From NCBI RefSeq assembly GCF_026151205.1, contig NC_087084.1, positions 10,755,453 to 10,815,452 on the forward strand: a stretch of 60,000 bases of DNA. Direction: 5' to 3'. The notes under the pieces are model-generated. The model made no database searches and was not told the origin of the DNA. It was given only the letters and a program-made list of their open reading frames with translations. Shown one piece after another: positions 6,151 to 42,000 of the stretch. The stretch is from Bolinopsis microptera (lineage: Eukaryota > Ctenophora > Tentaculata > Lobata > Bolinopsidae). Position numbers and translations under genes: made by a program. How positions within the stretch are numbered: position 1 is the first letter of the stretch; each line of letters opens with the position of its first letter.

Positions 6151-6165
6151 TATTAGTGTGTGTAA

Positions 6166-10575: not shown

Positions 10576-10738
10576 GTTGCTACTAGGAACCGACCGGAAA
10601 TCCAGCTGAATCCGGTTCCGGCCGGATATCCGGCTTCAAAATCCGGTTCCGGTTCCGGCTCCGGCTGGAAAAAAATTTGCCGGATTTTTGCCGGATTTCA
10701 GTTTTTTTACCGAAAAAAAATCAAAAAAATATTTTCGG

Positions 10739-13872: not shown

Positions 13873-16800
13873 ATGATTACTATAAATAGTAAACTTGGTA
13901 CAAAAGAGGAAATATCTTCTCTCGCTACCAAACTTCGCTCAGTTCCTGATGATAAAGATAAAATAGTGTGCCCAGATGTGATAAAGAAGCTGAAACAAAC
14001 TGATTTTTACAGTGTGGTTGTTGATTTGTATAAGAGTAATGAGGAGTTGCAATTTAGGAGGGATGCAACTTTCTTATTGAGAAGGGTCGGATCCTACGGT
14101 GATAAGGAAGATTTAAAGGAGCTAGTTCATAGAGGTATAGTGAGGCTCATCCTTACAGATTGTGTTCACTCAACAGATGCAGATATCATAATAAACATAG
14201 TGACAGTCTTAAGAGATGTATCTTCCGAACATAACAAGGTTCTTTTGTCAGACATTGCTGAGGAAGGTCTTTATGATAAAATGATATACCTGCTGGAGAC
14301 CTGGAAAAGAAACGATGATATAGCTGGGAGAATACTTTTCATGATCAACACGATAAGTATTTATGAGATGTCATTAGGTGAAGATATTGTTTCCTTAAAC
14401 CAGCCTAGATTGGTTGATATGCTGAGAAATAAACATCAACTTCTTAGAGAAATAATAAGTTCGGACACCAGCTGTAAAGTAACCGCTGCGATACTGTTAA
14501 ATAAATACCTGGACAGTATTAAGGAAAGTGAGATATTACAACTGTTAATACCACCGACAAATGAAATGTTCACTGAGGGAGGTATTGTTAAGTTAGCTAG
14601 TAACATAAGAGCGATACCTGATGAAGAAGAAGAATTTGGAAAACAAGTAATCAAAGAGGTTGTTTCAGCTGACTTTATCAGAAAGTTTAGCGAAAAGTAC
14701 GACAGTAATACTGAGGAGGTGTATCGTAGAAACCTGACATATGTGATGGCAATAGTAGCTTCTATAGGAGATAAAGCTGTAATAAGCTCACTGGTTAAAA
14801 GTGGTGTTATAAAAACTTTGATAACAACATTTGAACATTGCACTGACAGTGAGGTTATGTGCAATATATCATATATTCTCGAGAACATTGCATTTGATAA
14901 CGGTGAACACGCACATGTTGACCACCTTGTTGAGGAGGGAGTTCTAAGCCTTATATCTAAACTACTACAGAAGTGGAGTAAAGATGACAATGTGATGGTT
15001 AGGTTACTTTACACTTTACAGACAATTACCTGTTATAAGCAGGATATCAAGGAGTTAGCAAACAGTACAGAGTACGGAAATATAGCTCTACTCCTACAAG
15101 AGTTATTAGAAACAGCTTCCTGTGACAGTGTTATTGTGCAGACTATTGATGCGATCAGGAGTTTAGTACTGTGGACTGATGTACTTCACACAGTGTTTCT
15201 ACACGCAAGCTTCTTTACCACAGCTTTCCGACACCTGCAATCAACTAAGCTAAGCAGTGATAGTAAGCAGTACCTACTGTGTGATATTATATGTACATTA
15301 GCAAACAACAATACTGATACTATAAAAGATCTGCTGATTCCTTACTCTCAACCACTGAAAGAATTTGCAAAGACGGGGAGTGATAGTGGGTTAAGTGTAA
15401 ATGCTGCAATACTTCTATTCAAATACCTGGACAGTATTGAGGAAACTGAGCTATTACAACTGTTAATACCACCGACAGATGAAATGTTCACTGAGGAAGG
15501 TATTGTAAAGCTAGCCAGTAACATAAGAGCAATACCTTATGAAGAAGAAGAATTGGGAAAACAAATAATCGGAAAGGTTGTTTCAGCTGACTTTATCAGC
15601 AAGTTTAGTGAAAAGTACGACAGTAATACTGAGGAGGTGTATCGTAGAAACCTGACATATGTGCTTGTAAGAGTAACTTCTCTAGGAGGTAAAGCTGTAA
15701 TAAGCTCACTGGTTAAAAGTGGTGTTATAAAAACTTTGATAACAACATTTGAACATTGCAATGACAGTGAGGTTATGTGCAATATATCATATTCTCTAGA
15801 GAACATTGCATATGATAACGGGGATTCCACAAATGTTGACCACCTTGTTGAGGAGGGAGTTCTAAGCGTTATATCTAAACTACTACAGAAGTGGAGTAAT
15901 TGTAAAGACGACACTGTGATGGTTAGGTTACTTTTCACTTTACAGAACATTACCGGTTATAGTGAAGATATCAAGGAGTTAATAGCAAACAGTACAGAGT
16001 ACGAAAACATAGCTCTACTCCTACAAGAGGTATTAGAAACAGCTTCCAGTGACAGTGTTCTTGTGCAGACTATTAATGCGATCAGGAGTTTAGTACTGTG
16101 GTCTGATGTACTTCACACAGTGTTTCTACACGCAAGCTTCTTTACCACAGCTTTCCGACACCTGCAATCAACTGCACTAAACACTGATTATAGTAAGCAG
16201 TACCTACTGTGTGATATTATATGTACATTAGCGAACAAGAATACTGATAATATAAAAGATCTGCTGATTCCTTACTCTCAACTACTGAAAGAATTTGCAA
16301 AGACGGGGAGTGATAGTGGGTTAAGTGTAAATGCTGCAATACTTCTATTCAAATACCTGGACAGTATTGAGGAAACTGAGCTATTACAACTGTTAATACC
16401 ACCGACAGATGAAATGTTCACTGAGGAAGGTATCGTAAAGCTAGCCAGTAACATAAGAGCAATACCTTATGAAGAAGAAGAATTGGGAAAACAAGTAATC
16501 AGAAAGTTTGTTTCAGCTGACTTTATCAGCAAGTTTAGTGAAAAGTACGACAGTAATACTGAGGAGGTGTATCGTAGAAACCTGACATATGTGCTTGAAA
16601 GAGTAACTTCTCTAGAAGATAAAGCTGTAATAAGCTCACTGGTTAAAAGTGGTGTTATAAAGCATTTGATAACAACATGTGAATATTGCACTGACAGTGA
16701 GGTTATGTGTAATATATCAGATACTCTGCAGTATATTGCATATGATAACGGGGATGAACACGCACATGTTGACCACCTTGTTGAGGAGGGAGTTCTAAGC

Positions 16801-17313
16801 CTTATATCTAAACTACTACAGAAGTGGAGTAAAGATGACACTGTGATGGTTAGGTTATTTTGCATTTTACGATCCATTACCTGTCTGCATAGGCAGGATA
16901 TCAAGGAGTTAATAGCTAACAGCACAGAGCACGGGAATATACCTCTACTCCTACAAGAGTTATTAGAAACAGCTTCCAGTGACAGTGTTATTGCGCAGAC
17001 TATTGATGCGATCATGTGTTTAGTACTGTGGACTGATATACATCACACAGTGTTTCTACACGCAAGCTTCTTCACCACAGCTTTCCGACACCTGCAATCA
17101 ACTACCCTAAACAGTGATAGTAAGCAGTTATTACTGTGTGATATCATATGTACATTAGCAAACAAGAATACTGATAATATGAAAGATCTGCTGATTCCTT
17201 ACTCTCGACCACTTAAAGAATTTGCCAAGACGGGGAGTGATAGTTTGTTAAGTGTTAATGCTACAATACTGTTAAATAAATACCTGGGCAGTATTGAGGA
17301 AAGTGAGCTTTAA
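13873..17313 (+). CDS. ARM/HEAT-like repeat protein with three near-identical modules
   Basis: A 1146-codon uninterrupted frame. The sequence is helical with ARM-like motifs such as SLVKSGVIKTLITTFEHC and LVEEGVLSLISKLLQKW, spaced as in armadillo/HEAT proteins. The first ~231 residues are a divergent unit. Then come three modules of about 306, 310 and 300 residues (starting at the MFTE motif, DNA 14566, 15484 and 16414) that are nearly identical in DNA, so they arose by recent tandem duplication. The last module stops exactly where the next would begin, at GAGCTTTAA in place of GAGCTATTA. No signal peptide or membrane span is visible, so it is probably an intracellular scaffold. Family unknown to me. 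ATG at 13873 is the first in frame, but an upstream exon is possible. A poly(A) signal AATAAA lies at 17590-17595. Confidence 0.8.
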   Translation: MITINSKLGTKEEISSLATKLRSVPDDKDKIVCPDVIKKLKQTDFYSVVVDLYKSNEELQFRRDATFLLRRVGSYGDKEDLKELVHRGIVRLILTDCVHSTDADIIINIVTVLRDVSSEHNKVLLSDIAEEGLYDKMIYLLETWKRNDDIAGRILFMINTISIYEMSLGEDIVSLNQPRLVDMLRNKHQLLREIISSDTSCKVTAAILLNKYLDSIKESEILQLLIPPTNEMFTEGGIVKLASNIRAIPDEEEEFGKQVIKEVVSADFIRKFSEKYDSNTEEVYRRNLTYVMAIVASIGDKAVISSLVKSGVIKTLITTFEHCTDSEVMCNISYILENIAFDNGEHAHVDHLVEEGVLSLISKLLQKWSKDDNVMVRLLYTLQTITCYKQDIKELANSTEYGNIALLLQELLETASCDSVIVQTIDAIRSLVLWTDVLHTVFLHASFFTTAFRHLQSTKLSSDSKQYLLCDIICTLANNNTDTIKDLLIPYSQPLKEFAKTGSDSGLSVNAAILLFKYLDSIEETELLQLLIPPTDEMFTEEGIVKLASNIRAIPYEEEELGKQIIGKVVSADFISKFSEKYDSNTEEVYRRNLTYVLVRVTSLGGKAVISSLVKSGVIKTLITTFEHCNDSEVMCNISYSLENIAYDNGDSTNVDHLVEEGVLSVISKLLQKWSNCKDDTVMVRLLFTLQNITGYSEDIKELIANSTEYENIALLLQEVLETASSDSVLVQTINAIRSLVLWSDVLHTVFLHASFFTTAFRHLQSTALNTDYSKQYLLCDIICTLANKNTDNIKDLLIPYSQLLKEFAKTGSDSGLSVNAAILLFKYLDSIEETELLQLLIPPTDEMFTEEGIVKLASNIRAIPYEEEELGKQVIRKFVSADFISKFSEKYDSNTEEVYRRNLTYVLERVTSLEDKAVISSLVKSGVIKHLITTCEYCTDSEVMCNISDTLQYIAYDNGDEHAHVDHLVEEGVLSLISKLLQKWSKDDTVMVRLFCILRSITCLHRQDIKELIANSTEHGNIPLLLQELLETASSDSVIAQTIDAIMCLVLWTDIHHTVFLHASFFTTAFRHLQSTTLNSDSKQLLLCDIICTLANKNTDNMKDLLIPYSRPLKEFAKTGSDSLLSVNATILLNKYLGSIEESEL

Positions 17314-21082: not shown

Positions 21083-24000
21083 CTAAACCTTTTGTTTTTT
21101 GTTTTTCTTAACGAGCGGCTGAATATTCTCCTTCTCAGACAGAACAGGTTTTGTGGAGGAATGTTGAGTGTGTCGTGTAACAGCTGATACTCCGTCAACA
21201 AACTTCGTCCTGATAGGATGAGGGTCTTATTATAACCAATCAGAGCACAGTACTCACACCACGTGACACAAAGTAACCAATCAGAGCACAGTATTCACAC
21301 CACGTGACACAAAGTAACCAATCAGAGCACAGTACTCACACCACGTGACACAAAGTAACCAATCAGCGCACAGTATTCACACCACGTGACACAAAGTAAC
21401 CAATCAGAGCACAGTATTCACACCACGTGACACAAACTAACCAATCAGAGCACAGTACTCACACCACGTGACACAAAGTAACCAATCAGAGCACAGTACT
21501 CACACCACGTGACACAAACTAACCAATCAGAGCACAGTATTCACACCACGTGACACAAAGTAACCAATCAGAGCACAGTACTTACACCACGTGACACAAA
21601 CTAACCAATCAGAGCACAGTATTCACACCACGTGACACAAACTAACCAATCAGAGCACAGTATTCACACCACGTGACACAAAGTAACCAATCAGAGCACA
21701 GTACTCACACCACGTGACACAAAGTAACCAATCAGCGCACAGTATTCACACCACGTGACACTGCACAAAGTAACCAATCAGAGCACAGTACTCACACCAC
21801 GTGACACAAAGTAACCAATCAGCGCACAGTATTCACACCACGTGACACAAAGTAACCAATCAGAGCACAGTATTCACACCACGTGACACAAACTAACCAA
21901 TCAGAGCACAGTACTCACACCACGTGTCACAAAGTAACCAATCAGAGCACAGAACTCACACCACGTGACACAAAGTAACCAATCAGAGCACAGTATTAAC
22001 ACCACGTGACACAAAGTAACCAACCAGAGCACAGTACTCACACCACGTGACACAAAGTAACCAACCAGAGCACAGTATTCACACCACGTGACACTAAGTA
22101 ACCAATCAGAGCACAGTACTCACACCACGTGACACAAACTAACCAATCAGAGCACAGTATTCATAATATAAATATTCAATCTACCTGAAGAGAACGTTAG
22201 CATTCTGGAACATGCCATCTTTGAGGGAGACCACGACGAATTGAGAATGTTTGAAGTGAGCCCTCAACATCTGTCCGATGTTCTGAGTGTGGGACAAGTC
22301 TAGCGCTGCGTCCACCTGGAAAAAAACACGTGTCAGTATTCCATAACAGAAACGTTTTATTATTCCCTAACAGAGGAGTATAATTAGTATAATAAGTATA
22401 ATTAATATAATTTGTATAATTAGTATAATTAGTATAATTAGTATAATAAGTATAATTAGTATAGTAAGTATAATTACCTCGTCCAGAATGTATAGAGGAG
22501 CTGGTTTGAAGAGAAGAAGAGATAAGATAAGAGAGAGAGCTACTAAAGATCTCTGTCCCCCGCTCAGTTCTGTTAGTGACTCTTTCCATACCTCACCGAA
22601 CCCAACCTGCAATTGTAAACTATTAAAGTAAGGTAATATAGAACCCAACCTGCAATTATAAGCTATTAAAGTAAGGTAGTATAGGTTTACAAAGTAAGAT
22701 ATATGTATACGATACTCGTTATACTCGTTTAATACGTTGCTATTTTTTGTCTCCCTTATCTTTAAAAGCTTATCAGCTCGATACTGCTGCATACTGTGGC
22801 GGTCTGTGTACATATTGGAAATAGTACATATTATCGAGTACATTTGAAGAATAAGACGTGTACATTTGAAGAATAAGACGTGTGAACTGTCAATTTTTGT
22901 CAATATGGAAACAGAGAATCAGATTAAAACTGCGATTGGGGGCCTGCTTCTCCGGGCAGAGTCTAATGTACTAGTTAAACGTGTCCTCACTGCATTTGAT
23001 CCATTTGCTAAGCGTACCGTCAACTACAAACAACTGAATCAGTTCAATCTCGATATTCTGGAGCCATGTGCAGAGTTTCTCAGTATTAACCTTGCAGACG
23101 AAGATGACAATAAACTGTACACCAAGGAGTCATTGGTATACCGCATCATATTTGGTATCTCTTCACTTCTTCCAACTTCCTGCGGTGACTGCAACGAATC
23201 ATATGTTGTCGAATTGAATGCTGAAGAGCCACCCTTATTTGTTTGCTACACATGCTTCCGGGGTTCTCACAACTGCGAGAATGTCAAAACTTTCCACAAA
23301 TGTATGTTGGAAGCATCTATAATCAGTCTCCTATCTGGGCACGTGTGGATGTGTAAGGACTGTAAAGCTACACATAACCCCCTCAAACCCAGAAAGTCTA
23401 AATCAAGACATAACAGCGTCACCAAACCTGATCCCACACTATCCAGGATTATGAGTGAGCTTAAAAGTCAGACCTCCTCCCCTACTCATCAGTCTTGCAA
23501 TAAAAGTGTTGTTGAACCTGAGTCTGAGGAGAATAGTCAGACAACTCATATTGATCAGCACAATTCTCTCGACGAAGACTTTCAATCCAAACTTCAAGAT
23601 AAACTTGAAATAGTGGCTAAGGATCAAAATGTTTGTCCGCAATACAAGAAGGGAAAATGTCCTCATGGCCTGAAAGGCAACAAGCTTGTAGACGGCAGTC
23701 CATGTGAGTTCAATCATCCCAGATATTGCCCTAGATTTTGCAGCTTTGGCAACCAAAACAAGGGTGGTTGTAAGAAAGGAGCTAGGTGCCAGCTCGTCCA
23801 CCCAGTATTGTGCAAATACTCAGTCAAGAATAAACTTTGCACCAACCTTGAATGCACGTTTATTCATCTGAAGGGAACCAGACGAAAAGAGGCTAGGAGT
23901 ACAAACGCGAATGAGAAGCGTCCCAGCCCCGAGCGTTCAGATTCAGTCCCAAATGATTCTAAGGATCATTTTTTAGAGTTGAGAGGGCTGGTCGAGACAA

Positions 24001-27000
24001 TGCAGTCAAACTTCCTTCGGGAGATTGCAGACATCCGATCCGGCCTGGTCAATACTCTTTACCAACAGCAGCAGATGCAACAAATGTCGAGGTATGCTCT
24101 CCCACCTCCAACAGGAGCGGCACTAAACCAGTATCATCACATGCACCAGCCGCAGTTTCAACAAGCGTACCTTCTGTCGCAGAGACCACCCAACATGCCT
24201 CCAACCATGCCCTTCATTCCTCCTGCATGCTCCTAAATGTGCAGTCAATGAACCCGAGTGCAAACAGTACAAGCAAGTGGAAAGTCCCTGAAATCATTTC
24301 CTTCGTTCAAGAAGAAAAGTCAAAAAACCACTCTCTGCCTTTTATTGCACTCACCGAGACTTGGCTTAAGTCTTATATATCAGATGCACAATTACACGTG
24401 CCTGGATATGTATTATGTGGTTTCCCGCTCGGACCGAGATGCTAGAGTGGGTGGAGGTGTGCTCCTCTACTCCCATATGAACATTCCTGTTAGTGAATGC
24501 CACACCTTTGATGATGGTATTTGCGAAGGAATTTTCTGTCGTTTTGACACCATCAAGACGTGCTACGTCGTGGTTTATAGACCACCAAATGCCCAAGTGG
24601 AAAGTTTTACCGCACTCCTGAAGTTTGTGTCAAATTGTATACAACAGGTCAATGACGACAGTTTTGATCATAACATAACGGGGGACTGTAACTTACCTGC
24701 AATTAACTGGGAAACTTCAACTTTGAAATCAGACGGATTTTCAGAGATGCACAAATCATGCCGTGCCCTTTTGTCATTTATGTCAGAACATTTCTTAAGT
24801 CAATACGTCACATTCCCAACTAGAGGTAATAATGTTCTAGACATATTCTTGACTAATAACGATAGACTTATCACTAATGTCGTTTCTGAGAAGACAGAAC
24901 TATCTGATCACAACCTGATCGATATCATGTTTGCATGGAACCCGCTTAGTTCTGAAGAATCAGCTATTCCAAAGTTTGATGAGAACTCCTTCAGATCATT
25001 AGATTTCAGCAAAGCAGACTATGAAGTTCTGAAACAGAAACTGGATGAAGTGGAGTGGCCTACGATGCGAAATCTTTGTTCATTTGAAGAATTCCCCGCA
25101 CTCTTTACGGATACATTGTTCCAGATTTGCCAGTCATGTGTCCCCCAGAAGAGAGTCCCGTCAGGTCGCCCAAAGCATGTCAATGCATTAAGACGGAAGA
25201 AAGCACGTCTTAAAACACGTCTGGATGCACTCTTAGCTATGAACGGGAACCCAGTTCACATTAGGAATGTTAAAGATAAGCTTGCTCTCATATGCTATGA
25301 TATAAAAGAGGCATTCCTTAACGAAATGGATAAAAAGGAAGATAAAGCGTTGGAAAAAATCAAGACCAACCCTAAATACTTTTATAGTTATGCCAAGTCC
25401 TTATCAAAAATCAAATCGTCAATTAGCATGCTGTTCAACAAACGTGATGAAATAATCACTGATCCTAAGTCAATGGCAGATCTTCTACAAGAGCAATTTA
25501 GCTCTGTTTTCAGTGATCCAGATTGTCCCGATGTTCAAGATCCCCAGTTCATGGCAGCAGATATAACGCAACCACTAACTGACGAAGATTTTGTTATTTC
25601 TGATGAAGACATCATATCGGCTATTTCTGCAATCTCACCCGATTCGGGTTGTGGACCAGATGGAGTGCCAGTTTGTCTTCTCAAGACATGTGCTCAAGAA
25701 CTGTGCCAACCCATTAAACTTATCTGGACGGAATCATACACCCTGGGTCTTGTACCCAAATTCTATAAGGAGACACATATTTCTCCTCTCTACAAAAAGG
25801 GAAACCGGGCACATGCAGTGAACTACCGTCCCGTTGCCCTCACCTCACACATCATCAAGATCTATGAGCGCATTCTACGGAGCACCATGGTCAAGTACTT
25901 AGATGAAAATGAAATTTTGTGTGATAATCAACATGGATTTCGTTCGGGAAGGAGCTGTTTGACTCAGCTTCTTAGCCACTTCGACGACATCATGAGTGGC
26001 CTTTTGAGTGGGTCAGATACTGATGCAATATATCTAGACTTTGCGAAGGCCTTCGACAAGGTGGATCATCGTCAGTAGTATGTCAGGGATTTTTCAATAG
26101 CCATTTTGGGAAAAAAGTAGGTACAGGTGCTTGGAGTAAGCATATTACGTAATGTTACCGGCGGCGACCTTGTAATTAGTGTGATATCATGTTCCATGTG
26201 GACTCTATATTGGATGTAACTTGATTATTACGTCATGTTCATTGCACACGGTACTATTGTGATCTTATCGTGTAACGATCTTACCAGATTAGAGTGGGTA
26301 AAAGTGAAGTTATAATGTGTCACAAGCGATCCTTATCCTATAAATCACTTGAGTGACTCATTCAATCGTCTCTTGTGATTAATTTACACCATCTGTCAAT
26401 AAAACTGATTGATGCTTTTAAAAGTAAAACAAATGATTCGTAACTGGTTGGAAAATAAATGGAAATGAAGGTTTTTACAAATAACATTAACTGAATATTA
26501 TTTACACGATACACATCCAAAAATACGTTTTGACAGAATTAAATTAAGGTCTTAGTTTAAATCTATAAATATCAAATCGTACACACACAATTCTTTCCAC
26601 TGTCCATTTTGTTGATGGTCTGTGCAGTCGAGCATAGTCAAAGGCGTCTTGTTGTTCAATATCCTCAACAAATTGTCTATAATCAGATGGAGTTTCTAAT
26701 AATCGAGGGAGTGTAAACAGCATCGTGTTGTTTGACGGATGAAAAAACTTTAGTTCATCTGTAGTCCTGTCCTTGAGAATAAATCCAAACGCCACATTAA
26801 CTTTGAACTTCTCGTTGTATTTTGCAACAACTTCTTCAGCTTTTCTCAAGATCGCACTATTATCAGTGGTGATTATAGGAAAATGGTAAACATCTTTCAA
26901 TCGACCCTGTCTCACACTCGTTTTAATTGTTTTCCAACTCCTTTTGTAAATATCCTGATATTCTCCAGGAATTTGTGCAAGTGTGGAACGGTCCATAACT

Positions 27001-30000
27001 AATAATATTGACAATAGAGGATTCATTTTGAAAACCAGTTCTCCCAGATGCTTTTATAGTCTTTGTTCCGGAGGTCAATTTTATTCATTAATTTCAGTCA
27101 CTTTGATCCTCAGATTGTGAAATGGAATGATTATCTAGCGTGCTTTCTGATTCTGACTGATCAATTTCACTAATATTAGAATCCGATGAGTACTGTTCTT
27201 CTTCCTTGTCTGATGCCGTTTCAGATCCTGACTGATCAGTCATAGAGTTATTGTCATCAATCTCCGATTTCTCTTCTTCATTTACAGACTTTATTTCCTG
27301 TTTCTCAGAATCAGATGGCTCAAATAATTCATCAATATCGGTTTTCATCCGGTCAAACATGTTCACGAGATGATTAAAATTTTCGTGTATCATTGCTTTT
27401 GCCATTAACTTCGAAGCATTAGATATTTCATTTAGCAGCTGGATTTCCTCCTCACTCAGTTTACTTAGATCTACCGTTTTCAGTATTAACTTGAGGACAT
27501 TACGGAGTTTAGGAATATCTGCAGTCACTTCGTCTATGTCATTTTCAACAAAAGAGTTCCTTATTTCAATCATACCATCGATAAGATCTTCAGCTGCCAG
27601 TTCGTTCAAATCAACACCAACCTCTTGACCAACGTTTTGATCGACAGTATTATCCATAGTATCTAGAATATCTCTTATATCATTTTTGTTTGATTCTACC
27701 GTAAGTTTGAGTATTCTGAGTTCATTTGATGGAAGAATGCTGTCCTCATATCTAACAAAGTGAGTTTTATTACTCACACTGTCATTACTTTTCATCTCCT
27801 CACTCAAGTTCCTGACAAGTCTGTCTAATTCATCGACAGTCGATTGCAGAATATTTAGGTCTGCTTTCATTAGTACAATGTCCGTAACTTTATCCTGTAA
27901 ATAATCGTATCCAGGACCATCTGTTGTGAATTCGTTGGCTGCTGGAAGCTTATTCTTAGTAGCGTAATCAGTACCATACTCGTAGTCGAGACTCACGGAA
28001 TCATTGGGTAAACTGTAGACCTTATTTATATTTCTGCTATCTTTCTGTGCCCTGTGATACGAGTAGCGGTGGGTACGAAGACTTTTAGAATTTTTGTACT
28101 GCCTTCCACAACTATCACACGAGTATGATTTACTACTCATTTTCAAGCTAGATGAAAAACTATTGAATTCATATCAGCTGTCAAAAGTCCCTTATATACC
28201 TCTCAGATGAGAGTGACATTAATTGAAAGAATTAGTCGCATCGTTATTATAATACAAACGACAATGTTAGTTGTATTATCAATAATGACGGGTATTAATG
28301 ACGGGTATTGTTAATAATGACGGGTGTTATTAATAATGACGGGTTTAGTGACGGGTATTGTTAATAATGACAGGTATTATTATTATTAATGACGGGTATT
28401 ATTATTAATGACGGGTATTATTATTATTAATGACGGGTATTATTATTATTAATGACGGTTATTATTATTAATGACGGGTATTATTATTATTAATGACGGG
28501 TATTATTATTAATGACGGGTATTATTATTATTAATGACGGTTATTATTATTATTAATGACGGGTATTATTATTAATGACGGGTATTATTATTATTAATGA
28601 CGGGTATTATTATTATCAATGACGGGTATTATTATTATTAATGACGGGTATTATTATTAATGACGGGTATTATTATTATTAATGACAGGTATTATTATTA
28701 TTAGTAGTAGTAAACCCGCGATGGGGTGGCATGTGCCTTAATAAAAATATTACAATCATTTATTATTATATCAATTTATCGTTAAATATTTCAAAAATAT
28801 CAATAACGTATGGTTGATCCTTCACACTTGGTAAAATATATAAAAATAAAGTTAATCTACACTAAAGAATAAATAATCTATATTATATAAATCAACAATA
28901 TTAACTCCCCATCTTCTTGTAGTCATTTATCAAAGCGGTAGAAATCCAAGTAATTTTAGTACGCGTTGCGCAAGGAATTTCGTTTTTTTTTTAAATGTGT
29001 AGGCAAGATAAGCCTAAGTGTGACAGTGAAAATTGAAAAATAAGTTGCAGAATAAATTGCAGTGACTGACTGTCAAATGTATTATCGCAGTTCATTTATT
29101 TGACTGCACTAACGTTTAGGATTCTTACAGCTGTTATATTTTGCTAATATTTTGTTTAAAAGTTGTAAAGGACAAAGTTCTTGTCCGTCCACGAAAGGTT
29201 TTCTAGGTCAAGTTTTTGTTTGTCCTGTAAGTAACGTACAATGTTGTCCTTGTATGAATTAATAAAGTTATCTTGTAACTTAGGTACGTTGAAGGGAAGG
29301 ATTTTATTTATTTCGTTTATCGTGTTGTTATATAATCGTGGTCCTACGTTAGAGATGCTATAATCGGTGATCCGTAATCTGTTGAACTTAATTTCAAAAT
29401 ACTTTGGATTTCTCCTTTCCGTTTGTCTAAGCGGTGATTTTTCAAATATACTACAGATACTCGATGGTGCTATTCCCATATAAACCTTGTGCATCAAAGT
29501 TAGACAGCTTTTAGCAATGAGATTAGGAAGAGCCAAAATTCCTATTTTGTTGAAGATGGATTTTGTGTGAGATGGTAGTTTACGTTTTTCTTTGTCGTAA
29601 AAATAGTTATGATATTCTGAATCAGTGGCGCGAATAGCTTTCTTTTGAGCAGAGAATAAAGACTGAATGGAATTTAAAGATTTAGTACCCCAAATAGTAG
29701 CGCAGTAATACAGGTGAGATTGAATTAAACTATTGTATAGCATTTTTTAAGCTTTTTTTTTAATGACGGGTATTATTATTAATGACGGGTATTATTATTA
29801 TTAATGACGGGTATTATTATCAATGACGGGTATTATTATTATTAATGACGGGTATTATTATTAATGACGGGTATTATTATTATTAATGACGGGTATTATT
29901 ATTATTAATGACTGGTATTATTATTAATGACAGGTATTATTATTATTATTAATGACGGGTATTATTATTAGTGACGGGTATTATTATTAATGACGGGTAT

Positions 30001-33000
30001 TACCAATGAAGACGGAATAATGACGGATATTATTATTATTAGTGACGGTTATTATTATTAATGACGGGTATTACCAATGAAGACGGAATAATGACGGATA
30101 TTATTAACAATGACGGATATTATTACTAATGACGGGTATTATTATTAATAACGACGGTATTAAACATTTTAACTTACAAAATGAAACAAGCTATGTATCA
30201 TGGAAAATGTTTATATCCGAAACAAAAATAAAATAAAATAAAACCATGGTAAATTTTCATCTCAATTAATCCTCAAATATCTAAATAAGTCGTGCTAATA
30301 CCGTTATCTAAAATCTTCCTCTTGACATATAAATGATTCTGGTTTTAGATAACGGTATTAGCACGACTTATTTAGATATTTGAGGATTAATTGAGATGAA
30401 AATTTACCATGGTTTTATTTTATTTTATTTTTGTTTCGGATATAAACATTTTCCATGATACATAGCTTGTTTCATTTTGTAAGTTAAAATGTTTAATACC
30501 GTCGTTATTAATAATAATACCCGTCATTAATAATAATATCCGTCATTGTTAATAATATCCGTCATTATTCCGTCTTCATTGGTAATACCCGTCATTAATA
30601 ATAATAACCGTCACTAATAATAATAATATCCGTCATTATTCCGTCTTCATTGGTAATACCCGTCATTAATAATAATACCCGTCACTAATAATAATACCCG
30701 TAATTAATAATAATAATAATACCTGTCATTAATAATAATACCCGTCATTAATAATAATAATACCCGTCATTAATAATAATAATACCCGTCATTAATAATA
30801 ATAATACCCGTCATTAATAATAATAATACCCGTCATTAATAATAATAATATCCGTCATTAATAATAATACCCGTCATTAATAATAATAATACCCGTCATT
30901 AATAATAATACCCGTCATTATTAATAATACCCGTCATTAATAATAATACCCGTCATTAATAATAATAATACCCGTCATTAATAATAATACCCGTCATTAA
31001 TAATAATACCTACTACTACTACTACTACTATGTCGGAGCTAAGTCCGATCTACGCCAGAAAACCCCCTCCATATATCCCTGTCCCGCATCAGGGTTCGCA
31101 GTTCCTCTTTAGAGTTTGTCCCAACTTCCTTCAGTAACATAGACAAGTAGCTTTGTCTTGGTCGGCCTTGCTGTGCTCTACCGTGCGTAGGTTCCCATAA
31201 GACTAAATCACTGGCAAGTAGCTCAGGATGTCGGATGCAGTGTCCCGCCATTTTTAATCTCCTGCTTCGTAACTTGTTTGACAGCCTTGGGAGGCTACCA
31301 TACAAAGTTATATTGCTGACCTTGTCCTTCCATGAGATACCCAGCACCATACGCAACATCTTTGTGTATGTCCCGTCCAAACTTTTCTCTTGAGCCTTTG
31401 TCAGTGTCCAGGTTTCTGATCCGTAGAGCAGTACTGATTCACAAGCCGCTATGAACAATCTAATCTTTAGGCTCTTTGACAGTTTGGATTTCCAGATATC
31501 CTTCAGTCTATGTAGGGCACCCCACGCTTTTCCCTTTCTAACCCTTATCTCCCTATCTGTGCTCTCAATCCAGGAGCCTAAGTAGATGAAATCATCTACA
31601 TTTTCTATGTCATTTTCTACGTCATTAATAATAATAATAACCGTCATTAATAATAATAATACCCGTCATTAATAATAATACCGTCATTAATAATAATAAT
31701 ACCTGTCATTAATAACAATACCCGTCATTAATAACAATACCCGTCATTAATAATAATACCCGTCATTAATAATAATAATACCTGTCATTATTAACAATAC
31801 CCGTCACTAAACCCGTCATTATTAATAACACCCGTCATTATTAACAATACCCGTCATTAATACCCGTCATTATTGATAATACAACTAACATTGTCGTTTG
31901 TATTATAATAACGATGCGACTAATTCTTTCAATTAATGTCACTCTCATCTGAGAGGTATATAAGGGACTTTTGACAGCTGATATGAATTCAATAGTTTTT
32001 CATCTAGCTTGAAAATGAGTAGTAAATCATACTCGTGTGATAGTTGTGGAAGGCAGTACAAAAATTCTAAAAGTCTTCGTACCCACCGCTACTCGTATCA
32101 CAGGGCACAGAAAGATAGCAGAAATATAAATAAGGTCTACAGTTTACCCAATGATTCCGTGAGTCTCGACTACGAGTATGGTACTGATTACGCTACTAAG
32201 AATAAGCTTCCAGCAGCCAACGAATTCACAACAGATGGTCCTGGATACGATTATTTACAGGATAAAGTTACGGACATTGTACTAATGAAAGCAGACCTAA
32301 ATATTCTGCAATCGACTGTCGATGAATTAGACAGACTTGTCAGGAACTTGAGTGAGGAGATGAAAAGTAATGACAGTGTGAGTAATAAAACTCACTTTGT
32401 TAGATATGAGGACAGCATTCTTCCATCAAATGAACTCAGAATACTCAAACTTACGGTAGAATCAAACAAAAATGATATAAGAGATATTCTAGATACTATG
32501 GATAATACTGTCGATCAAAACGTTGGTCAAGAGGTTGGTGTTGATTTGAACGAACTGGCAGCTGAAGATCTTATCGATGGTATGATTGAAATAAGGAACT
32601 CTTTTGTTGAAAATGACATAGACGAAGTGACTGCAGATATTCCTAAACTCCGTAATGTCCTCAAGTTAATACTGAAAACGGTAGATCTAAGTAAACTGAG
32701 TGAGGAGGAAATCCAGCTGCTAAATGAAATATCTAATGCTTCGAAGTTAATGGCAAAAGCAATGATACACGAAAATTTTAATCATCTCGTGAACATGTTT
32801 GACCGGATGAAAACCGATATTGATGAATTATTTGAGCCATCTGATTCTGAGAAACAGGAAATAAAGTCTGTAAATGAAGAAGAGAAATCGGAGATTGATG
32901 ACAATAACTCTATGACTGATCAGTCAGGATCTGAAACGGCATCAGACAAGGAAGAAGAACAGTACTCATCGGATTCTAATATTAGTGAAATTGATCAGTC

Positions 33001-36000
33001 AGAATCAGAAAGCACGCTAGATAATCATTCCATTTCACAATCTGAGGATCAAAGTGACTGAAATTAATGAATAAAATTGACCTCCGGAACAAAGACTATA
33101 AAAGCATCTGGGAGAACTGGTTTTCAAAATGAATCCTCTATTGTCAATATTATTAGTTATGGACCGTTCCACACTTGCACAAATTCCTGGAGAATATCAG
33201 GATATTTACAAAAGGAGTTGGAAAACAATTAAAACGAGTGTGAGACAGGGTCGATTGAAAGATGTTTACCATTTTCCTATAATCACCACTGATAATAGTG
33301 CGATCTTGAGAAAAGCTGAAGAAGTTGTTGCAAAATACAACGAGAAGTTCAAAGTTAATGTGGCGTTTGGATTTATTCTCAAGGACAGGACTACAGATGA
33401 ACTAAAGTTTTTTCATCCGTCAAACAACACGATGCTGTTTACACTCCCTCGATTATTAGAAACTCCATCTGATTATAGACAATTTGTTGAGGATATTGAG
33501 CAACAAGACGCCTTTGACTATGCTCGACTGCACAGACCATCAACAAAATGGACAGTGGAAAGAATTGTGTGTGTACGATTTGATATTTATAGATTTAAAC
33601 TAAGACCTTAATTTAATTCTGTCAAAACGTATTTTTGGATGTGTATCGTGTAAATAATATTCAGTTAATGTTATTTGTAAAAACCTTCATTTCCATTTAT
33701 TTTCCAACCAGTTACGAATCATTTGTTTTACTTTTAAAAGCATCAATCAGTTTTATTGACAGATGGTGTAAATTAATCACAAGAGACGATTGAATGAGTC
33801 ACTCAAGTGATTTATAGGATAAGGATCGCTTGTGACACATTATAACTTCACTTTTACCCACTCTAATCTGGTAAGATCGTTACACGATAAGATCACAATA
33901 GTACCGTGTGCAATGAACATGACGTAATAATCAAGTTACATCCAATATAGAGTCCACATGGAACATGATATCACACTAATTACAAGGTCGCCGCCGGTAA
34001 CATTACGTAATATGCTTACTCCAAGCACCTGTACCTACTTTTTTCCCAAAATGGCTATTGAAAAATCCCTGACATACTACTATCGTCTTCTCATTGATAA
34101 ATTGCAAAAGTATGGATTTAACGGAAGGATTCTTAAGTGGCTGGAGTCGTTTCTGTCGGACCGTCATCAACATGTTGTTCTGAACGGGGTGTCTTCCTTC
34201 GCAGCCTTGGTTATCAGTGGAGTCCCCCAAGGAACCGTTCTTGGACCCCTCCTTTTTATACTCTTCATAAATGACATGAAGCTTTGTGTTACTGGTTCAA
34301 TTATAAGATTCTTTGCTGATGACACCCGTATACTGAAGCACATATATACAGAACAGGATGTTATCGTTCTTCAGCAAGATCTCGACCATGTCATTGCATG
34401 GGCCAAACGTAATAACATGGTTTTACATGAGGATAAGTTTGAGCTCCTAGTTCACCGGGGGAATCCTAATGAGAGTCTGTATGAGCTGCCTTTTGTATGT
34501 CAAACACAAACATACAAGGTGTCAGGCGGTAATATGCTCTATCCTACAGACCAAGTTAAGGATCTTGGAGTTATAGTGTCTTCTGATATGTCGTGGTCAC
34601 ATCATGTCAGTTCTATGGCATCTCGAGCTAGAAAAGTGGCAGCCTGGGTGCTTAGTGCGTTCAAGTGCAGAAATAGAATAACAATGTTGACACTTTACAA
34701 GTCACTTATCCGAAGTCATTTAGAGTACTGCTGCCCTCTGTGGAATACCAGTAAAATCTCAGACATCCAACAGATTGAAGGAGTACAGCGTACTTTCACC
34801 TCAAGGATTTGGGGTGTTCAACATCTTGACTATTGGCAGCGGCTCAAAGCACTAAATCTAATGTCGATGCAAAGGAGGAGAGAGCGTTATATTATCATCC
34901 ACATGTGGAAAATCTTACATCAACGCTGCCCAAATGACCTTGGGATTCTTTTTTCTACTCCATCAAGACACGGAATCAAGGCCACCATTCCAAGTCTCAG
35001 CAAGAGCAGTACTCAACGTCAACAGTCATTGTATGATGGTTCATTTGCAGTAATGGGGCCACGTTTATGGAACACCATTCCATCAGATCTTCACCTCATT
35101 AAAGACCCACTGCTGTTCAAAGCAAAACTATCCGCATTTCTTAAACCGTTTCCAGAGAACCCACCTGTGAGCAATTACAGCTGCCCTAATGGAAATTCTT
35201 TGCTGGACTGGAGTATGAATAAGGCAGCAGCGATGCTGCAAGGGCGGTCGAACTTTTCGATGACCCAGTAGAGGAATCTACGAATCTCTCCAAAGTATCC
35301 AAAGTAAGTATGTTTACTTAGCAACAATAATAACCTATATAAAGATATAAACATTAGCACTTACCTTGACTTCTAGACCATCAGTAACAGGTCTCCCCTC
35401 CAAAGGTATAAACATTAGCACTTACCTTGACTTCTAAACCATTAGTAACAGGTCCTTCCTCCAAAGATATAAACATTAGCACTTACCTTGACTTCTAGAC
35501 CATCAGTAACAGGTCTCCCCTCCAAAGATATAAACATTAGCACTTACCTTGACTTCTAAACCATCAGTAACAGGTCTCCCCTCCAAAGATATAAACATTA
35601 GCACTTACCTTGACTTCTAAACCATCAGTAACAGGTCTCCCCTCCAAAGATATAAACATTAGCACTTACCTTGACTTCTAAACCATCAGTAACAGGTCTC
35701 CCCTCCAAAGATATAAACATTAGCACTTACCTTGACTTCTAAACCATCAGTAACAGGTCTCCCCTCCAAAGATATAAACATTAGCACTTACCTTGACTTC
35801 TAAACCATCAGTAACAGGTCTCCCCTCCAAAGATATAAACATTAGCACTTACCTTGACTTCTAAACCATCAGTAACAGGTCCCCCCTCCAAAGATATAAA
35901 CATTAGCACTTACCTTGACTTCTAAACCATCAGTAACAGGTCTCCCCTCCAAAGATATAAACATTAGCACTTACCTTGACTTCTAAACCATCAGTAACAG

Positions 36001-39000
36001 GTCTCCCCTCCAAAGATATAAACATTAGCACTTACCTTGACTTCTAAACCATTAGTAACAGGTCCCCCCTCCAAAGATATAAACATTAGCACTTACCTTG
36101 ACTTCTAAACCATCAGTAACAGGTCTCCCCTCCAAAGATATAAACATTAGCACTTACCTTGACTTCTAAACCATCAGTAACAGGTCCCCCCTCCAAAGAT
36201 ATAAACATTAGCACTTACCTTGACTTCTAAACCATTAGTAACAGGTCCCCCTCCAAAGATATAAACATTAGCACTTACCTTGACTTCTAAACCATCAGTA
36301 ACAGGTCTCCCCTCCAAAGATATAAACATTAGCACTTACCTTGACTTCTAAACCATCAGTAACAGGTCTCCCCTCCAAAGATATAAACATTAGCACTTAC
36401 CTTGACTTCTAAACCATCAGTAACAGGTCCCCCCTCCAAAGATATAAACATTAGCACTTACCTTGACTTCTAAACCATCAGTAACAGGTCCCCCCTCCAA
36501 AGATATAAACATTAGCACTTACCTTGACTTCTAAACCATCAGTAACAGGTCTCCCCTCCAAAGATATAAACATTAGCACTTACCTTGACTTCTAAACCAT
36601 TAGTAACAGGTCCCCCCTCCAAAGATATAAACATTAGCACTTACCTTGACTTCTAAACCATCAGTAACAGGTCTCCCCTCCAAAGATATAAACATTAGCA
36701 CTTACCTTGACTTCTAAACCATCAGTAACAGGTCTCCCCTCCAAAGATATAAACATTAGCACTTACCTTGACTTCTAAACCATCAGTAACAGGTCTCCCC
36801 TCCAAAGATATAAACATTAGCACTTACCTTGACTTCTAAACCATCAGTAACAGGTCCCCCCTCCAAAGATATAAACATTAGCACTTACCTTGACTTCTAA
36901 ACCATCAGTAACAGGTCCCCCCTCCAAAGATATAAACATTAGCACTTACCTTGACTTCTAGACCATCAGTAACAGGTCTCCCCTCCAAAGTCTGCAGTTT
37001 AACCCTCGCTCCAGGAAGCAGCGTAGAGAATATAGAGCCGAAATCCTTGTTCACCTGCTCCCAGGCTCTCCTGACTGCCCGGTTCTTCTTCTCGTCCAGT
37101 TCCTTGATCACCTTGTTTATCTTGTGCTTGTCGTTAGTCACAATGTCCTTCCTTTTCACCAGGTCGATGTACCGTTTCTCTGCCTCTCCTAGCAGGTGCA
37201 TTGCTCTCATGTTCACATTCTTGGACAGTTTCTCTTTACTTGCCTTCAGACGCTCCAACTTCTTATCACTTTCTTTCAGGTCCTGTTTCTCAAAGTCGTA
37301 GGCAGTGTCCTTCTGTCCGAAGTACTGTTTTTCAGAAGCAATCCACTCATAGTTGTTGAGGTAGTACTGGACCTGCTGCTTTGCTTCGCTCGCTTCCTTG
37401 TTCAGTTTACTCAGCTTGTGGGTCAGCTCCTTCAGCTTTATCCCGCAGCTACTTATCTGCTTCTCCGCTGCTTTCTGCTCCTTCACAAAGTTCTCTATCT
37501 CAGCAGAACACTGTTGTATCAGTTCACGCTGAGCCCCAAGTTCAGCAGCCAGTGTCTCCCTCACCGCTGCGCACTCTGTCAGCTTTAACTGGGCTCCCTC
37601 CACTAGCTCCTGAGCAGCGGCTATAGCCTCCTCGCATTTAGGCAGCTGCTCTCGCAGACCCTCCAACTCCTTAGCTAGCTCACTGCTCACCTCCAACTCT
37701 AGTTCTTTCAACTTGTTCACCTTTGCTTTCGCCTCCTTCGAACACTTGTTTAATTTACTCTTTGCGTCTAATATCCTCTTCTCCGACTTCTTCAGTTCTT
37801 TCTCTTGTTCAGATTTGAAGTTCTTCATCTTAGCTTCCACTTCCGCGCACTTCTTTAAGAGACTCTTTTCTTTGTCGTTAAAATTGTCCACAATTTCCTT
37901 TTGCTTTGCCAGGTCCTCCTTAGTCCTTCTCAACTCCTCTATGTCTTTGTAGTGAGAGGTCTGCTTCAATCTTTCTTCTAATAAATCCCGCTCGTGCTTC
38001 TTCAACCTCAGCTGTCCTGTCAGTTCCTCCCACTGGTGAACAACTCTTTCCATTTTACTCAACTCTCCCTCTACCTGTCTGTACTGCTCTTTGTACTGGG
38101 TGAGATCAGATCTGGACTGTTTGCAGGCAGAGAGTTCTTTAAGAACACATCTAGAAGTGTTCCTGGACCCTCCCGTTAGAGTACCTGCCGGATCGTATAC
38201 ATCTCCCTCCAGAGTAATAACCTTCCTCTTCACTGACTTGTCGAATGCTACTTTCTTAGCTTGCTCCTTAGTTTTACAGATGAGAACCCCTCCAAAACAG
38301 AACTTCATGGCCGGTTCCACCTGTTTATCAAACTGGATGACGTCCAGAGCTAGGTGACAGTTGTCACCACCGACCAGTCTCTTGGCGCTGTTAACCACCT
38401 CCCTGTCTATAACATTGCTGCGGATCTTGTTGAGGGGTATCATGACGTACCTGCGGGGTTACCATAGTTACACTACTAGTTACTATAGTTACACTACTAG
38501 TTACTATAGTTACACTACTAGTTACCATAGTTACACTACTAGTTACCATAACTTTACACTACTAGTTACAATATCATGACGTACCTTCTGCGGAGTTGGC
38601 CGTGTTTGATGAGTAGAGCACTGGTGTCCTCGTTGTCTGTCACCACGTTATACAACCTCCCCCCAGCGGCAACCTCTAGAGCCATCGCGTACTGGTTATC
38701 CGGTACAGTGAAGAGATCAGCTACCAGCCCCTTTACGCGGGACCTATCAAAGTGCCTGTCTGGGGACACGTAGTCGAACTGGAGTTGCGGGAACTTGTTC
38801 ACTAGCTCGTTTACCTGTTTTGAAGCTTTAGCCACCTTGTTTTCTAGTTCACATTTCTCATTTTGTAGCTCACTGTGCACCTCTTGAGAGAAGCCAAGCT
38901 TCTCAATTCTCCTCTCCACTCCTTCCACAACTGTTACAGCCGTGTCAAACTCTCCCTTCTCCCGGGCTATTTCCCACTCCGCCTTCTTGCAGTCAGTCTC

Positions 39001-42000
39001 CATCTTCTTTATAGTGCTCTGAGAGTGTGCTAGTTTCAGGTTAGCTTGTTGGTTTGCTGTCTGTGCCTCGCTCAGCGAGTCTTTTAGCTTCATCAGATGT
39101 TCTGTGTATGTCAGCTGCTCTCCGTCTTCTCCCTCCATCTGTCCCGCTTGTACCTGGGTGTAGTTAGACAGTTAGCATAGTTACACTCAGTGTTTACACT
39201 ACTAGTTACTAAGGTTAGTTACACTACTAGTTACCATAGCTACACTACTAGTTACCATAGCTACACTACCAGTTACCATAGTTACCTGGGTGTAGTTAGA
39301 CTCTGCTCTCTCCACGTTTCCTCTCTCTTTCTCCTCCAACTCCTTGTACTTCTCTGCCTCTTCTCTCACTGCTGTCAACTCCTCTGATTTATTAGAGATG
39401 AGTTTCTCAGTGTTAGCGATACTCCTCAGCGTGCTCTCCTTCTCCTTCTCCTCCTGTCTAACAGCGTCCAGCACGTTATCCAGATCTGACGTAGCCTTTA
39501 CCTCCCTCTTACTAATATCCGTCATCTCAGTCTCCAGCTCCTCCAACTTAGAAGAAGCCTGTCCTTTCCTGGTCTGTTCCAGTCTACTTATCTCCTCCTT
39601 CAGCCGTTCTATCTCACTCTTACTTGCAACCACTTCGTTATCCATGGTGTTTATCTGGTCCTGTAAAGACAACACCTCCCCCGCTGCGTTCTGGTCCACG
39701 TGTTGAGCACGTGTGTATTTGTAGGCAACCACTAGTCGGGTTAGTGTCTCTATGTGTCGCTGTATCTTCTGGTACTCCAAATAGGACGCTCTCTCTGCTT
39801 TCAGCTTCTCTGAAGTGAGCACAAATCAGAACTGAGTCTTGGTAGCACGTAGTAATATGTGAGCACCAATCAGAACACAGTATTGGTAGCACGTGGTAAT
39901 ATGTGAGCACAAATCAGAAGACAGTATTAGTATTTATTAGTATAAATATACAACGTGATAACAAATAAAATTGTAAATAACTCAGCAAACTAAGTTTGGT
40001 TGTGGGATAATAAAACAGTATAAAAAACAAGAGTATTGCTGTGTATTAAATAAATGTATATGTACCAAGAGTAGGGTTCAGCTCTTCATCCAGTATCTTG
40101 TTTATATCAGTTAGTTTGTTATCTTTCTTCTCAATAGTTTTAAGAGCAGATTGTTTCTTACTCTCGTAAAGAGACGTTCCAGCTGCCTCCTCTATCATCG
40201 ATAATATCTCTTTAGGCTTCATGTTTAGAACCTACAGAGTTACATTGATAGTTACCATAGTTACACTACTAGTTACACTACTAGTTACCATAGTTACACT
40301 ACTAGTTACCATAGTTACACTACTAGTTACCATAGTTACACTACTTATACTAGTAACCATAGTTACACTACTAGTTAGCAAAGTTAAACTACTAGTTACC
40401 ATAGTTACACTACTAGTTACCATAGTTACACTACTAGTTACCATAGTTACACTACTTATACTAGTAACCATAGTTACACTACTAGTTAGCAAAGTTACAC
40501 TACTAGTTACCAATTACCATAGTTACACTAATAGTTACCATAGTTACACTTTTAGGTACCTTGGTAATGCGACCCTGCATTATTAAGAAGTGAGGGTTGT
40601 TTATGTTCAGCTGAACAGATCGGAACAAATCAGAGACTCTGTTATTGTTTGCATTAGATCCGTTTATCAGATATCTGTTTCTTCCTCCGACCACTACCTA
40701 GGATAGGTTTTAAATTTTATTTTTTCCAGTCGAGTACAACATTAATATATTAATATTTAAAGAAAATAGGGACAAGTTGTGTTATACCAATAACACCCCA
40801 GTTCCATGGCCGGATATTATGCCAAATTATTAGACGGAGGTCCATTTCCCGTAGATCATCTCCGGAGATGATTCTCCGGCTCCGTCTACTGTATTAGACG
40901 GAGATGAAGCTCTCCGGGAATTTCTCGGAGATTAATTCATACAGAATCAAGAAATTTCTGTAGATGGTCTTCGGTCGTGGAACTGCAAACCGGAGAAATA
41001 TCAGTAGACGAGCTCCGTCTAATGATTTGGCACAATATCCGGCCATGGAACTGGGGTGTAAGTCTAAATACTTCGTCTCAAGAAAGGCGCCAGAATCGTT
41101 GGAAGTGCGCGCGCAAATCAAAATTATCTGTGTTCTTAGAACAGAATCTTTGTATATCAAGGTCTCGTGGCCGAGCGGTCTAAGGCGCCAGTTTAAGGCA
41201 CTGGTCCTCCGGGGCGCGGGTTCGAATCCCGCCGAGGCCTATTTTATAATGCGAGAAGTACTGCATTTTAACAACTTGCAGTTTGTAGAAAATGTAAGCA
41301 CACAATTTTCTGGTCATTTATTTTAATGTAGAACACATTAACATTTGATTTAATTGATAAATTGTAGAAAATATTATAACGAATATTTAGAATGAAAAGC
41401 GCACCTGTCGTGTAATAGTAAGTTCGTCAAAGTTCTCGTATCCCACGGGAGTTTGTTTCTTGTCGGAGTTATCGAACACGATCGTAACACTCGCTTTAGT
41501 TATTCCTGCCTGGCCGTTCTTGTAAACCAGTTCTTGTAGGCTTGTAGCTCGCACCTGTGGATATCCTCGCTGAATAATTATTTTTCAAATATTAATACCC
41601 TATGGTCACGTGGCCGAGCGGTCTAAGGCGCCAGTTTAAGGCACTGGTCCTCCGGGGCGTGGGTTCGAATCCCACCGTGGCCTCTTTTTGGAATGTGAAC
41701 AGATATTACATCTGGCGACATATTATGATTGTTTTGTTTTAAAGACCCGAGGGCCACCAATAAGGGCTTTGAAACCGGTTTATTGAATACAATATAATAT
41801 AAAAATAAACTGCAATAATATCGTAACATTGATGTCGATACTAACTGAAATAATATAATCTGTAGGTAAAATAATAATAATAAAATATATATATAAAATA
41901 AAAATGATAATCTTTGGGATCACATGAAAATAGGTTGGCTCAGATTTCGGACAAAGAGTTGCTGGTTTAAGTACTCATTAAATATTTGAGGGCTTGGGTA

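Follow-up and report, generated by a model that had tools for sequence, protein, structure and literature searches.

Palindromic derivatives of Polinton-type elements in the genome of the ctenophore Bolinopsis microptera

The 60,000-nucleotide stretch of the Bolinopsis microptera genome analysed here (the window; NC_087084.1, C13:10755453-10815452) contains an element of about 8 kb at window positions 26074-34081 whose two arms mirror each other. By its ends and its target-site duplication (TSD) it is a Polinton-type insertion; by its genes it falls short of a Polinton and is a non-autonomous derivative of one. The same palindromic transformation is found in three Polinton families of this genome, at either end of the parent element. 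It is probable that the window element arose as a snap-back by-product of protein-primed replication and was integrated in trans by a Polinton integrase.

The termini read AGTAGTAT...ATACTACT, that is, (AGT)2...(ACT)2; read further, the element starts at the left with AGTAGTATG and finishes at the right with CATACTACT. It was inserted into the reverse-transcriptase region of a long interspersed nuclear element (LINE), and the two flanks, which have only the TSD in common, are the halves of this one LINE. When they are fused with a single copy of ATCGTC, a 999-aa open LINE frame results. An earlier note on this DNA had proposed the same limits, with AG...CT inverted termini and a 6-bp ATCGTC duplication, and all of these were borne out. 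The insertion site comprises the following features (window positions):

24258-26073, plus strand, host LINE open reading frame (ORF), 5' part (endonuclease and reverse transcriptase), split by the element
26068-26073, left copy of the TSD ATCGTC; the empty site restores the LINE frame
34082-34087, right copy of the TSD ATCGTC
34088-35271, plus strand, host LINE ORF, 3' part

Among the hallmarks of Polintons (Mavericks), the element has the 6-bp TSD and the end motif, (AG)3 or (AGT)2 (PMC8097293), here AGTAGT at each end. Of the protein-primed DNA polymerase (pPolB) it has a 3' remnant only, while relatives with the same terminal inverted repeats (TIRs) carry the gene. No RVE integrase was seen in the window element, and judged by ORF content (the arms consist of ORF1 and ORF2) it has no capsid, packaging ATPase or maturation protease; Pfam is a weak test for capsid and protease, as an integrase-bearing Polinton on C1 gave weak P-loop matches alone and neither of these two. 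The element has its ends and internal sequence in common with a pPolB-carrying element and lacks that element's enzymes, as a non-autonomous derivative does.

When each position p is paired with q so that p + q = 60155, the element shows a single mismatch (at 26655) across 26074-28419 (2,346 bp), and a repeat search extended this outer inverted repeat to 26074-28445 and 31710-34081, with an axis at 30077.5. A second, inner inverted repeat (29831-30313 and 30343-30825; 98% identity; p + q = 60656) has its axis at 30328, 250.5 bp to the right of the outer one, and the 29-bp spacer at 30314-30342 belongs to it. The half-lengths measured from this spacer, 4,240 bp on the left and 3,739 bp on the right, differ because each arm carries a LINE fragment of its own and the minisatellite has changed in length; the two LINE fragments are unrelated to each other. 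The element is thus one palindrome with later arm-specific insertions.

26074-28445, left arm of the outer inverted repeat (TIR, ORF1, ORF2, start of the minisatellite)
26074-26323, plus strand, terminal ~250 bp, left (AGTAGTAT...), shared with the pPolB end of asymmetric relatives
26544-27026, minus strand, ORF1, 160 aa, homologue of the pPolB terminal-protein region (D1; HHalign 99.6%)
27094-28146, minus strand, ORF2, 350 aa, with one C2H2 finger below the Pfam cut-off and, by eye, an acidic C terminus
28293-28703, plus strand, minisatellite (TAATGACGGGTATTATTAT-like units), left arm, first block
28704-29759 (approximate limits), minus strand, LINE fragment, left arm only, assigned by eye; its 195-aa ORF has no Pfam match
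29760-30162, plus strand, minisatellite, left arm, second block
30273-30313, minus strand, remnant of the pPolB 3' end (last ~13 codons), left of the spacer
30314-30342, spacer of 29 bp, the fold-back junction, consisting of ~23 nt of pPolB coding sequence and a few extra nucleotides
30343-30383, plus strand, inverted copy of the pPolB 3' remnant, right of the spacer
30494-31010, minus strand, minisatellite, right arm, inner block
31011-31628 (approximate limits), minus strand, LINE fragment, right arm only; its ORF has a DUF6451 Pfam match below the cut-off
31629-31862, minus strand, minisatellite, right arm, outer block
31710-34081, right arm of the outer inverted repeat
32009-33061, plus strand, ORF2, right copy
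33129-33611, plus strand, ORF1, right copy
33832-34081, minus strand, terminal ~250 bp, right copy (...ATACTACT)

In an intact LINE of the same genome DUF6451 sits beside RVT_1. The earlier note's claim that at least 2185 bp of each arm pair without length difference (p with 60155-p) holds. It had also carried the inverted repeat to the centre with a 29-bp spacer; the spacer is real, but it belongs to the second axis, and two repeats had been merged. A single unbroken palindrome up to the centre is ruled out by the unequal half-lengths and by 1,167 mismatches over the half-element at the 60155 register, all except one of them at or beyond 28420. Similarly, the description of the element as having only two gene types is accurate for the arms (ORF1 and ORF2) but not for the centre, which holds the pPolB remnant.

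The parent of the element can be recognized among its relatives in the genome (264.65 Mb, 232 contigs). The 500-bp window terminus matched at least 46 places, ORF1 58 and ORF2 38, and 20 stretches around the main pairs were mapped for terminus, arm, minisatellite and pPolB. Three copies of the window's family (family 1) are asymmetric, in the order TIR, pPolB, minisatellite, ORF2, ORF1, TIR:

C11:20701074-20712100, asymmetric copy, TSD AATACC
C13:9017941-9042089, asymmetric copy, TSD TATAGA
C9:2453316-2466179, asymmetric copy

Their TIRs are about 250-290 bp long and their pPolB lies in several open pieces. The window element corresponds to the ORF2/ORF1 end of such a relative, present twice, head to head. 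The N half of pPolB from the asymmetric copies (744 aa) had 56 homologues among 7,999 candidates scored; four long ones (P0047, P0048, P0050 and P0051; 30-31% identity) bear PF03175, and another comes from the ctenophore Mnemiopsis (40%). Integrase was not seen in these relatives, none of the 32 integrase matches in the genome lying in an asymmetric copy. A fourth copy (C13:9184330-9190756, L025) has kept pPolB and lost the ORF2/ORF1 end, and its right TIR is reduced to 75 bp; it has a perfect TSD (ACTGTA), so 75 bp may suffice for integration. The motif AGTAGTAT stands at 27 of 27 listed family-1 ends, which were chosen by their match to the window terminus, the altered left end of the C9 copy lying outside that list. 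At that end (L019:1012-1030) there is one AGT unit rather than two, with CAGCCT then the TSD, and the single unit would fit slippage in a triplet repeat. The minisatellite matched 154 places, and of those listed nearly all are at element loci and about ten elsewhere (such as C11:8.11 Mb and C3:17.05 Mb). As a separate observation, the open pieces of pPolB are divided by gaps of a few hundred bp that have an intron-like appearance in two Polinton families (L025, L033/L035).

The centre of the window palindrome records this parentage directly. The 90 bp around the spacer match the pPolB 3' end of each of the three asymmetric copies. Read from the left, the sequence extends as far as a point some 20.7 codons ahead of the pPolB stop, and the inverted copy begins 13 codons before that stop. 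Since the junction falls within the pPolB 3' end, the palindrome derives from an asymmetric pPolB element. One end of the genome is duplicated in inverted orientation around a short unduplicated loop of the parent (~23 nt of pPolB), the mark expected of snap-back and equally of a chromosomal fold-back. The readable centres of other copies, in family 1 and in a second family, fall inside the minisatellite.

The transformation is not confined to the window. Thirteen palindromic insertions (the window element and 12 others) were found in three Polinton families. In family 1 there are nine, against three full asymmetric copies; those outside the window are:

C15:71640-82874, palindrome with inverted copies of ORF1 and ORF2 at its two ends, TSD CATAGC
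C7:10099556-10104879, palindrome of the same structure, TSD AGTAGC
C5:21396799-21403579, palindrome of the same structure, TSD TACAGA
C13:16155574-16160488, palindrome of the same structure, TSD AACGTC
C8:3423494-3426227, small palindrome (terminus, minisatellite, at most gene remnants)
C7:6688397-6690408, small palindrome of the same kind
C13:11838754-11841117 (L039), small palindrome of the same kind, TSD CGTAGT
C9:2901916-2904236, small palindrome of the same kind, right end missing

Family 2, whose ORF1 is 56-58% identical to that of the window, contributes three palindromes (L029-L031) with arms 99.8-100% identical around a similar minisatellite, and the thirteenth, on C4, is described below. 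The C13:16155574-16160488 palindrome recurs in inverted orientation at C13:13623699-13637452; the flanks of the two are 99.4-99.5% identical, so this is one insertion duplicated along with its surroundings and was counted once. Transposition of a palindrome as the source of their common centre is ruled out by the same flanks. An element at C1:24486064-24493051 resembles the small palindromes; its centre was not resolved, and it stands outside the palindrome count. Also left out of the counts were L023 (5,000 N), L024 (one end), L027 (centre unresolved), a second C8 element from 3426843, a nested C2 locus (L041/L042), a relic at C5:5.0 Mb and further ORF1 and pPolB matches.

A perfect 6-bp duplication flanks 14 of the 18 distinct insertions in which both ends could be read, and all 14 duplications are different. 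They comprise those given above (except CAGCCT), the window's own, GCCGAT at C1:24.5 Mb, GATATC and GGCGGC in family 2, GTTACT at the C4 palindrome and CACAAT at the C1 Polinton. In C8 and in the family-2 element on C6 the match is five of six, at C7:6.69 Mb there is none, and on C9 a duplication appears only if one AGT unit has been lost. Many palindromic copies with different 6-bp duplications had been predicted in the earlier note, and nine of the 13 palindromic insertions do have perfect ones, all different; at C15, C7:10.1 Mb and C13:11.8 Mb the target DNA is locally repetitive, which makes a duplication weaker proof. The nested C2 locus (C2:1111000-1126500) consists of family-2 pieces, namely an arm, a pPolB fragment and inverted minisatellite, and two TTAGGG units, the telomere motif, adjoin the left element end there.

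A Polinton that carries its own integrase lies at C1:5562389-5581213. It has an RVE integrase (PF00665, E 2.4e-8), of which five more copies occur in the genome at 96-97%, a P-loop ORF with weak matches, the N half of a pPolB (731 aa) and a homologue of ORF1 (44%; L032:1685-2152); capsid and protease ORFs are apparent by eye only, with no confirmation from Pfam. Its ends, AGTAGTAATG...CATTACTACT, have the (AGT)2 motif, and its TIRs extend over several hundred bp. An autonomous relative with pPolB and integrase at the same ends had been anticipated as well; this is correct for the terminal motif but not for the 300-bp terminus, since no integrase was found in the relatives that share the 250-bp TIR. 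The view that the window element is a non-autonomous or replication-intermediate-derived Polinton gains support from the pPolB relatives with the same ends, the integrase-bearing Polinton and the TSDs, and we infer from these the origin in an intermediate.

The pPolB end of the C1 Polinton family is itself found as a palindrome, at C4:10346841-10361055 (99% identical). Its arms of 6,603 bp differ by one mismatch, and it derives from the end opposite to the one used in the window element; formation of palindromes is therefore limited neither to the minisatellite-bearing families nor to one particular end. Both arms contain a 1.92-kb tandem duplication and, near the centre, a 564-bp dispersed host repeat that elsewhere forms many direct pairs 5-10 kb apart, in the manner of long terminal repeats.

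Of the two genes in the arms, ORF1 is the more informative. It has no Pfam family, but it aligns to the N half of pPolB at residues about 99-241 (28%, E 4e-20), and HHalign gives 99.6% across 142 columns; in the pPolB rows a Cys/His segment follows this region. In the available text of PMC11071308, D1 of Polinton pPolB is modelled as a terminal-protein domain with a vOTU-like protease next to it, and the priming Ser or Tyr is placed after the second helix and ahead of the last strand, with a Gly or Pro nearby. The assignment of ORF1 to D1 depends on that text and on the place of the region before the vOTU-like Cys/His segment, with strand and helix limits set by eye. Thr139 of ORF1, two residues after an invariant Pro, occupies the aligned priming position, where 14 of 14 alignment rows have Ser or Thr; Thr is not among the D1 priming residues given in the same text, which names it as a primer elsewhere (PMC11071308). 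As expected of a Polinton-type terminal protein, ORF1 pairs homology to D1 with a hydroxyl-bearing residue in the loop that precedes the last strand. It is related to the terminal-protein domain of pPolB but stands alone, and it probably acts as a primer protein or an accessory to one; through it the palindromes may provide some of the machinery for their own initiation.

A search of the protein collection gave 242 relatives of ORF1, the best 120 mostly of about 146-150 aa. No relative was confirmed among 75 pattern matches to viral contigs, the 14 matches to PDB sequences (best E 0.055) were taken as chance, and a PHROGs search gave nothing useful. Stand-alone proteins of ~150 aa related to the terminal-protein region are also encoded in the integrase-bearing Polinton and on many, mostly short, database contigs. 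ORF2, with 18 relatives among 2,252 candidates, is by its sequence probably a DNA-binding protein. The ratio of nonsynonymous to synonymous differences (pN/pS) was 0.23 for ORF1 in eight elements and 0.14 in the five palindromic ones, and 0.44 and 0.43 for ORF2. The ORF1 ratio is no proof of selection on the palindromes as such, because these share history with their asymmetric parents. For ORF2, the corresponding rate ratio (dN/dS) of the window copy against its nearest relatives exceeded one (1.87 with C15, 1.24 with C11; few changes), and recent constraint on ORF2 is therefore not supported.

Arm-to-arm divergence is low throughout. Over uninterrupted stretches, mismatches numbered 1 in 2,188 for the window, 8 in 1,488 for C15 (13 in 1,740 with the terminal part included), 9 in 2,189 for C7, 4 in 1,810 for C5 and 8 in 2,151 for C13. 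Arms within an element of the window's family are 99.3-99.95% identical, against 93.2-98.8% between elements (28 pairs from eight elements), and the two arms of each element are always sisters in the tree. The window element has acquired two arm-specific LINE insertions and yet shows one substitution in 2,188 bp, which arm-to-arm conversion or a recent move would explain. In the same tree one group (96/99) contains the window and C15 palindromes and the asymmetric copy on C11, and another (99/99) joins the palindromes on C7 and C13 to the asymmetric copies on C13 and C9; the starred branches of this eight-element tree force two changes between palindromic and asymmetric states. Since the lost pPolB cannot be restored from a palindrome, the tree points to two or more origins of palindromes within family 1, in addition to family 2 and the C4 case, although gene conversion between copies could distort such a count. 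Two small palindromes of 2.3 kb (L039 and L040) match at 95% over 2,363 columns, their full length, and no flank of either is related to the other's.

Polinton replication has largely been inferred from gene content and end motifs. If it proceeds by protein-primed strand displacement, a strand bearing one origin could fold back and be extended; alternatively, a broken linear duplex could be sealed into a hairpin. Replication from the sole terminal protein would then pass round the hairpin and yield a palindromic duplex with two identical origins, to be copied and integrated by pPolB and integrase from intact relatives in trans. Such a product should be open to both steps because it retains the two ends needed by the polymerase and the integrase. 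The (AGT)2 motif of Maverick ends has been linked to "jumping-back" initiation in the available text of PMC8097293.

Several observations weigh against a snap-back origin. No hairpin or extrachromosomal form was seen. The palindromes of families 1 and 2 use the ORF1/ORF2 end exclusively, which random snap-back would not demand. By eye, the window junction has no obvious microhomology for priming, and the minisatellite strand folds no better than its shuffles (z +0.81; 158 of 200 fold equally well or better). An earlier, larger tree with more rows forced only one change of state, and 113 of 500 label shuffles needed no more changes than observed, so that outside the starred forks the labels carry little information. 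For the ability of palindromes to move as such, the pair L039/L040 is the one piece of evidence. The host repeat inside the C4 arms implies that the C4 template was already integrated, which a chromosomal mechanism explains equally well. The minisatellite as a strong self-folding trigger was rejected, both on the z value and by the C4 palindrome, which lies outside the minisatellite-bearing families.

Formation in the chromosome is the main rival and a possible one, above all for C4, though on balance we think it rather unlikely. A broken integrated asymmetric element would have one end copied across by way of its shared inverted termini, through break-induced replication, gene conversion or fold-back fusion; TSD and flanks would be kept, and the palindromes would be dead products, rarely mobile. 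Both termini and the TSD would be retained by this route too, near-identical arms fit recent conversion, the C4 template was integrated, as its host repeat indicates, and the duplication of C13:13.6 and 16.2 Mb together with flanks shows that rearrangement of these loci occurs. Against it stand the two small palindromes that have a full palindrome in common between unrelated flanks (though at only 95% identity), the preponderance of palindromic over full asymmetric insertions in family 1, and the same outcome in three families, as a property of replication would predict. It is very improbable that the element is an ordinary non-autonomous Polinton with unusually long TIRs, its symmetry having no special origin. 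Long TIRs do occur in Polintons, including the one on C1, but the TIRs of the asymmetric relatives reach only ~250-290 bp, the arms span two genes and the minisatellite into pPolB, and the centre, a recognizable junction derived from the parent, already contradicts such a reading. An assembly or library artefact from chimeric hairpin reads was rejected: near-perfect palindromes are a known artefact type, but the window flanks are two halves of one LINE with the TSD alone in common, the arms bear private LINE insertions and substitutions, and the 13 palindromic insertions lie at different places.

A further step beyond a snap-back origin, which we put forward tentatively and regard as doubtful, would make the palindromes replicating entities themselves, a class of Polinton satellites whose genome is an inverted dimer. 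In each cycle a hairpin with one origin would turn into a palindrome with two and back again, keeping the arms identical, and the unit would have its own terminal protein (ORF1) and borrow only pPolB and integrase. Should the snap-back origin be right, palindromes that combine Polinton ends with TSDs, found in three families, would record in the genome both an intermediate of replication, hairpin or snap-back, and the integration of anything with two proper ends. Protein-primed replication of Polintons would become testable from assemblies and long reads. The palindromes would likewise show how satellites resembling defective interfering genomes arise in a transposon, and they would point to a stand-alone terminal protein beside the origin.

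Elsewhere in the window, an SMC gene lies on the minus strand at 36905-39822, in several exons with minisatellites between them and with SMC_hinge split over two. An intronless ORF of 1,146 aa at 13873-17313 has Arm-like repeats and appears by eye to be triplicated internally. Two tRNA-Leu (AAG) genes (41160-41241 and 41604-41684) are 0.36 kb apart. Large tandem arrays occupy 2254-5183, 5509-6152, 10716-12283, 21233-22163 and 35341-36990, with GAG-rich, 14-, 256-, 41- and 61-bp units.

In comparison with known systems, the element is a variant of Polinton whose palindromic form is apparently undescribed: no description of palindromic Polintons was found among the matches listed in the literature searches, with subscription papers and Repbase outside their scope. 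Like Polintons/Mavericks (self-synthesising transposons; polintoviruses), it has a 6-bp TSD and (AGT)2...(ACT)2 ends, its parent has pPolB, and a Polinton with the same motif and an integrase is present in the genome; unlike them, it has mirror-image arms in which ORF1 and ORF2 remain, and no integrase, capsid, protease or ATPase gene was seen in it. Fold-back transposons and miniature inverted-repeat transposable elements (MITEs) also have large inverted repeats and a TSD and are non-autonomous, but the parent of the window element carries pPolB, a 6-bp TSD and (AGT)2 ends rather than a cut-and-paste transposase. A deletion derivative of the kalilo linear plasmid reportedly exists as hairpin and duplex, going by the title of a 1992 paper by Vierula and Bertrand; this too would be a deletion derivative of protein-primed linear DNA, although of a mitochondrial plasmid. 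Integrating mitochondrial plasmids of the invertron type make inverted repeats as well, but according to the available text these consist of the target mitochondrial DNA and flank the plasmid (PMC1864894). Replication of adeno-associated virus (AAV) is described as rolling-hairpin in the text available of PMC11575299. The snap-back genomes of AAV, as far as the accessible part of PMC8235507 describes them, are packaged in particles of a virus, whereas the palindromes here are integrated products of a protein-primed element; they nonetheless offer a parallel for a fold-back strand that would be copied into a palindrome.

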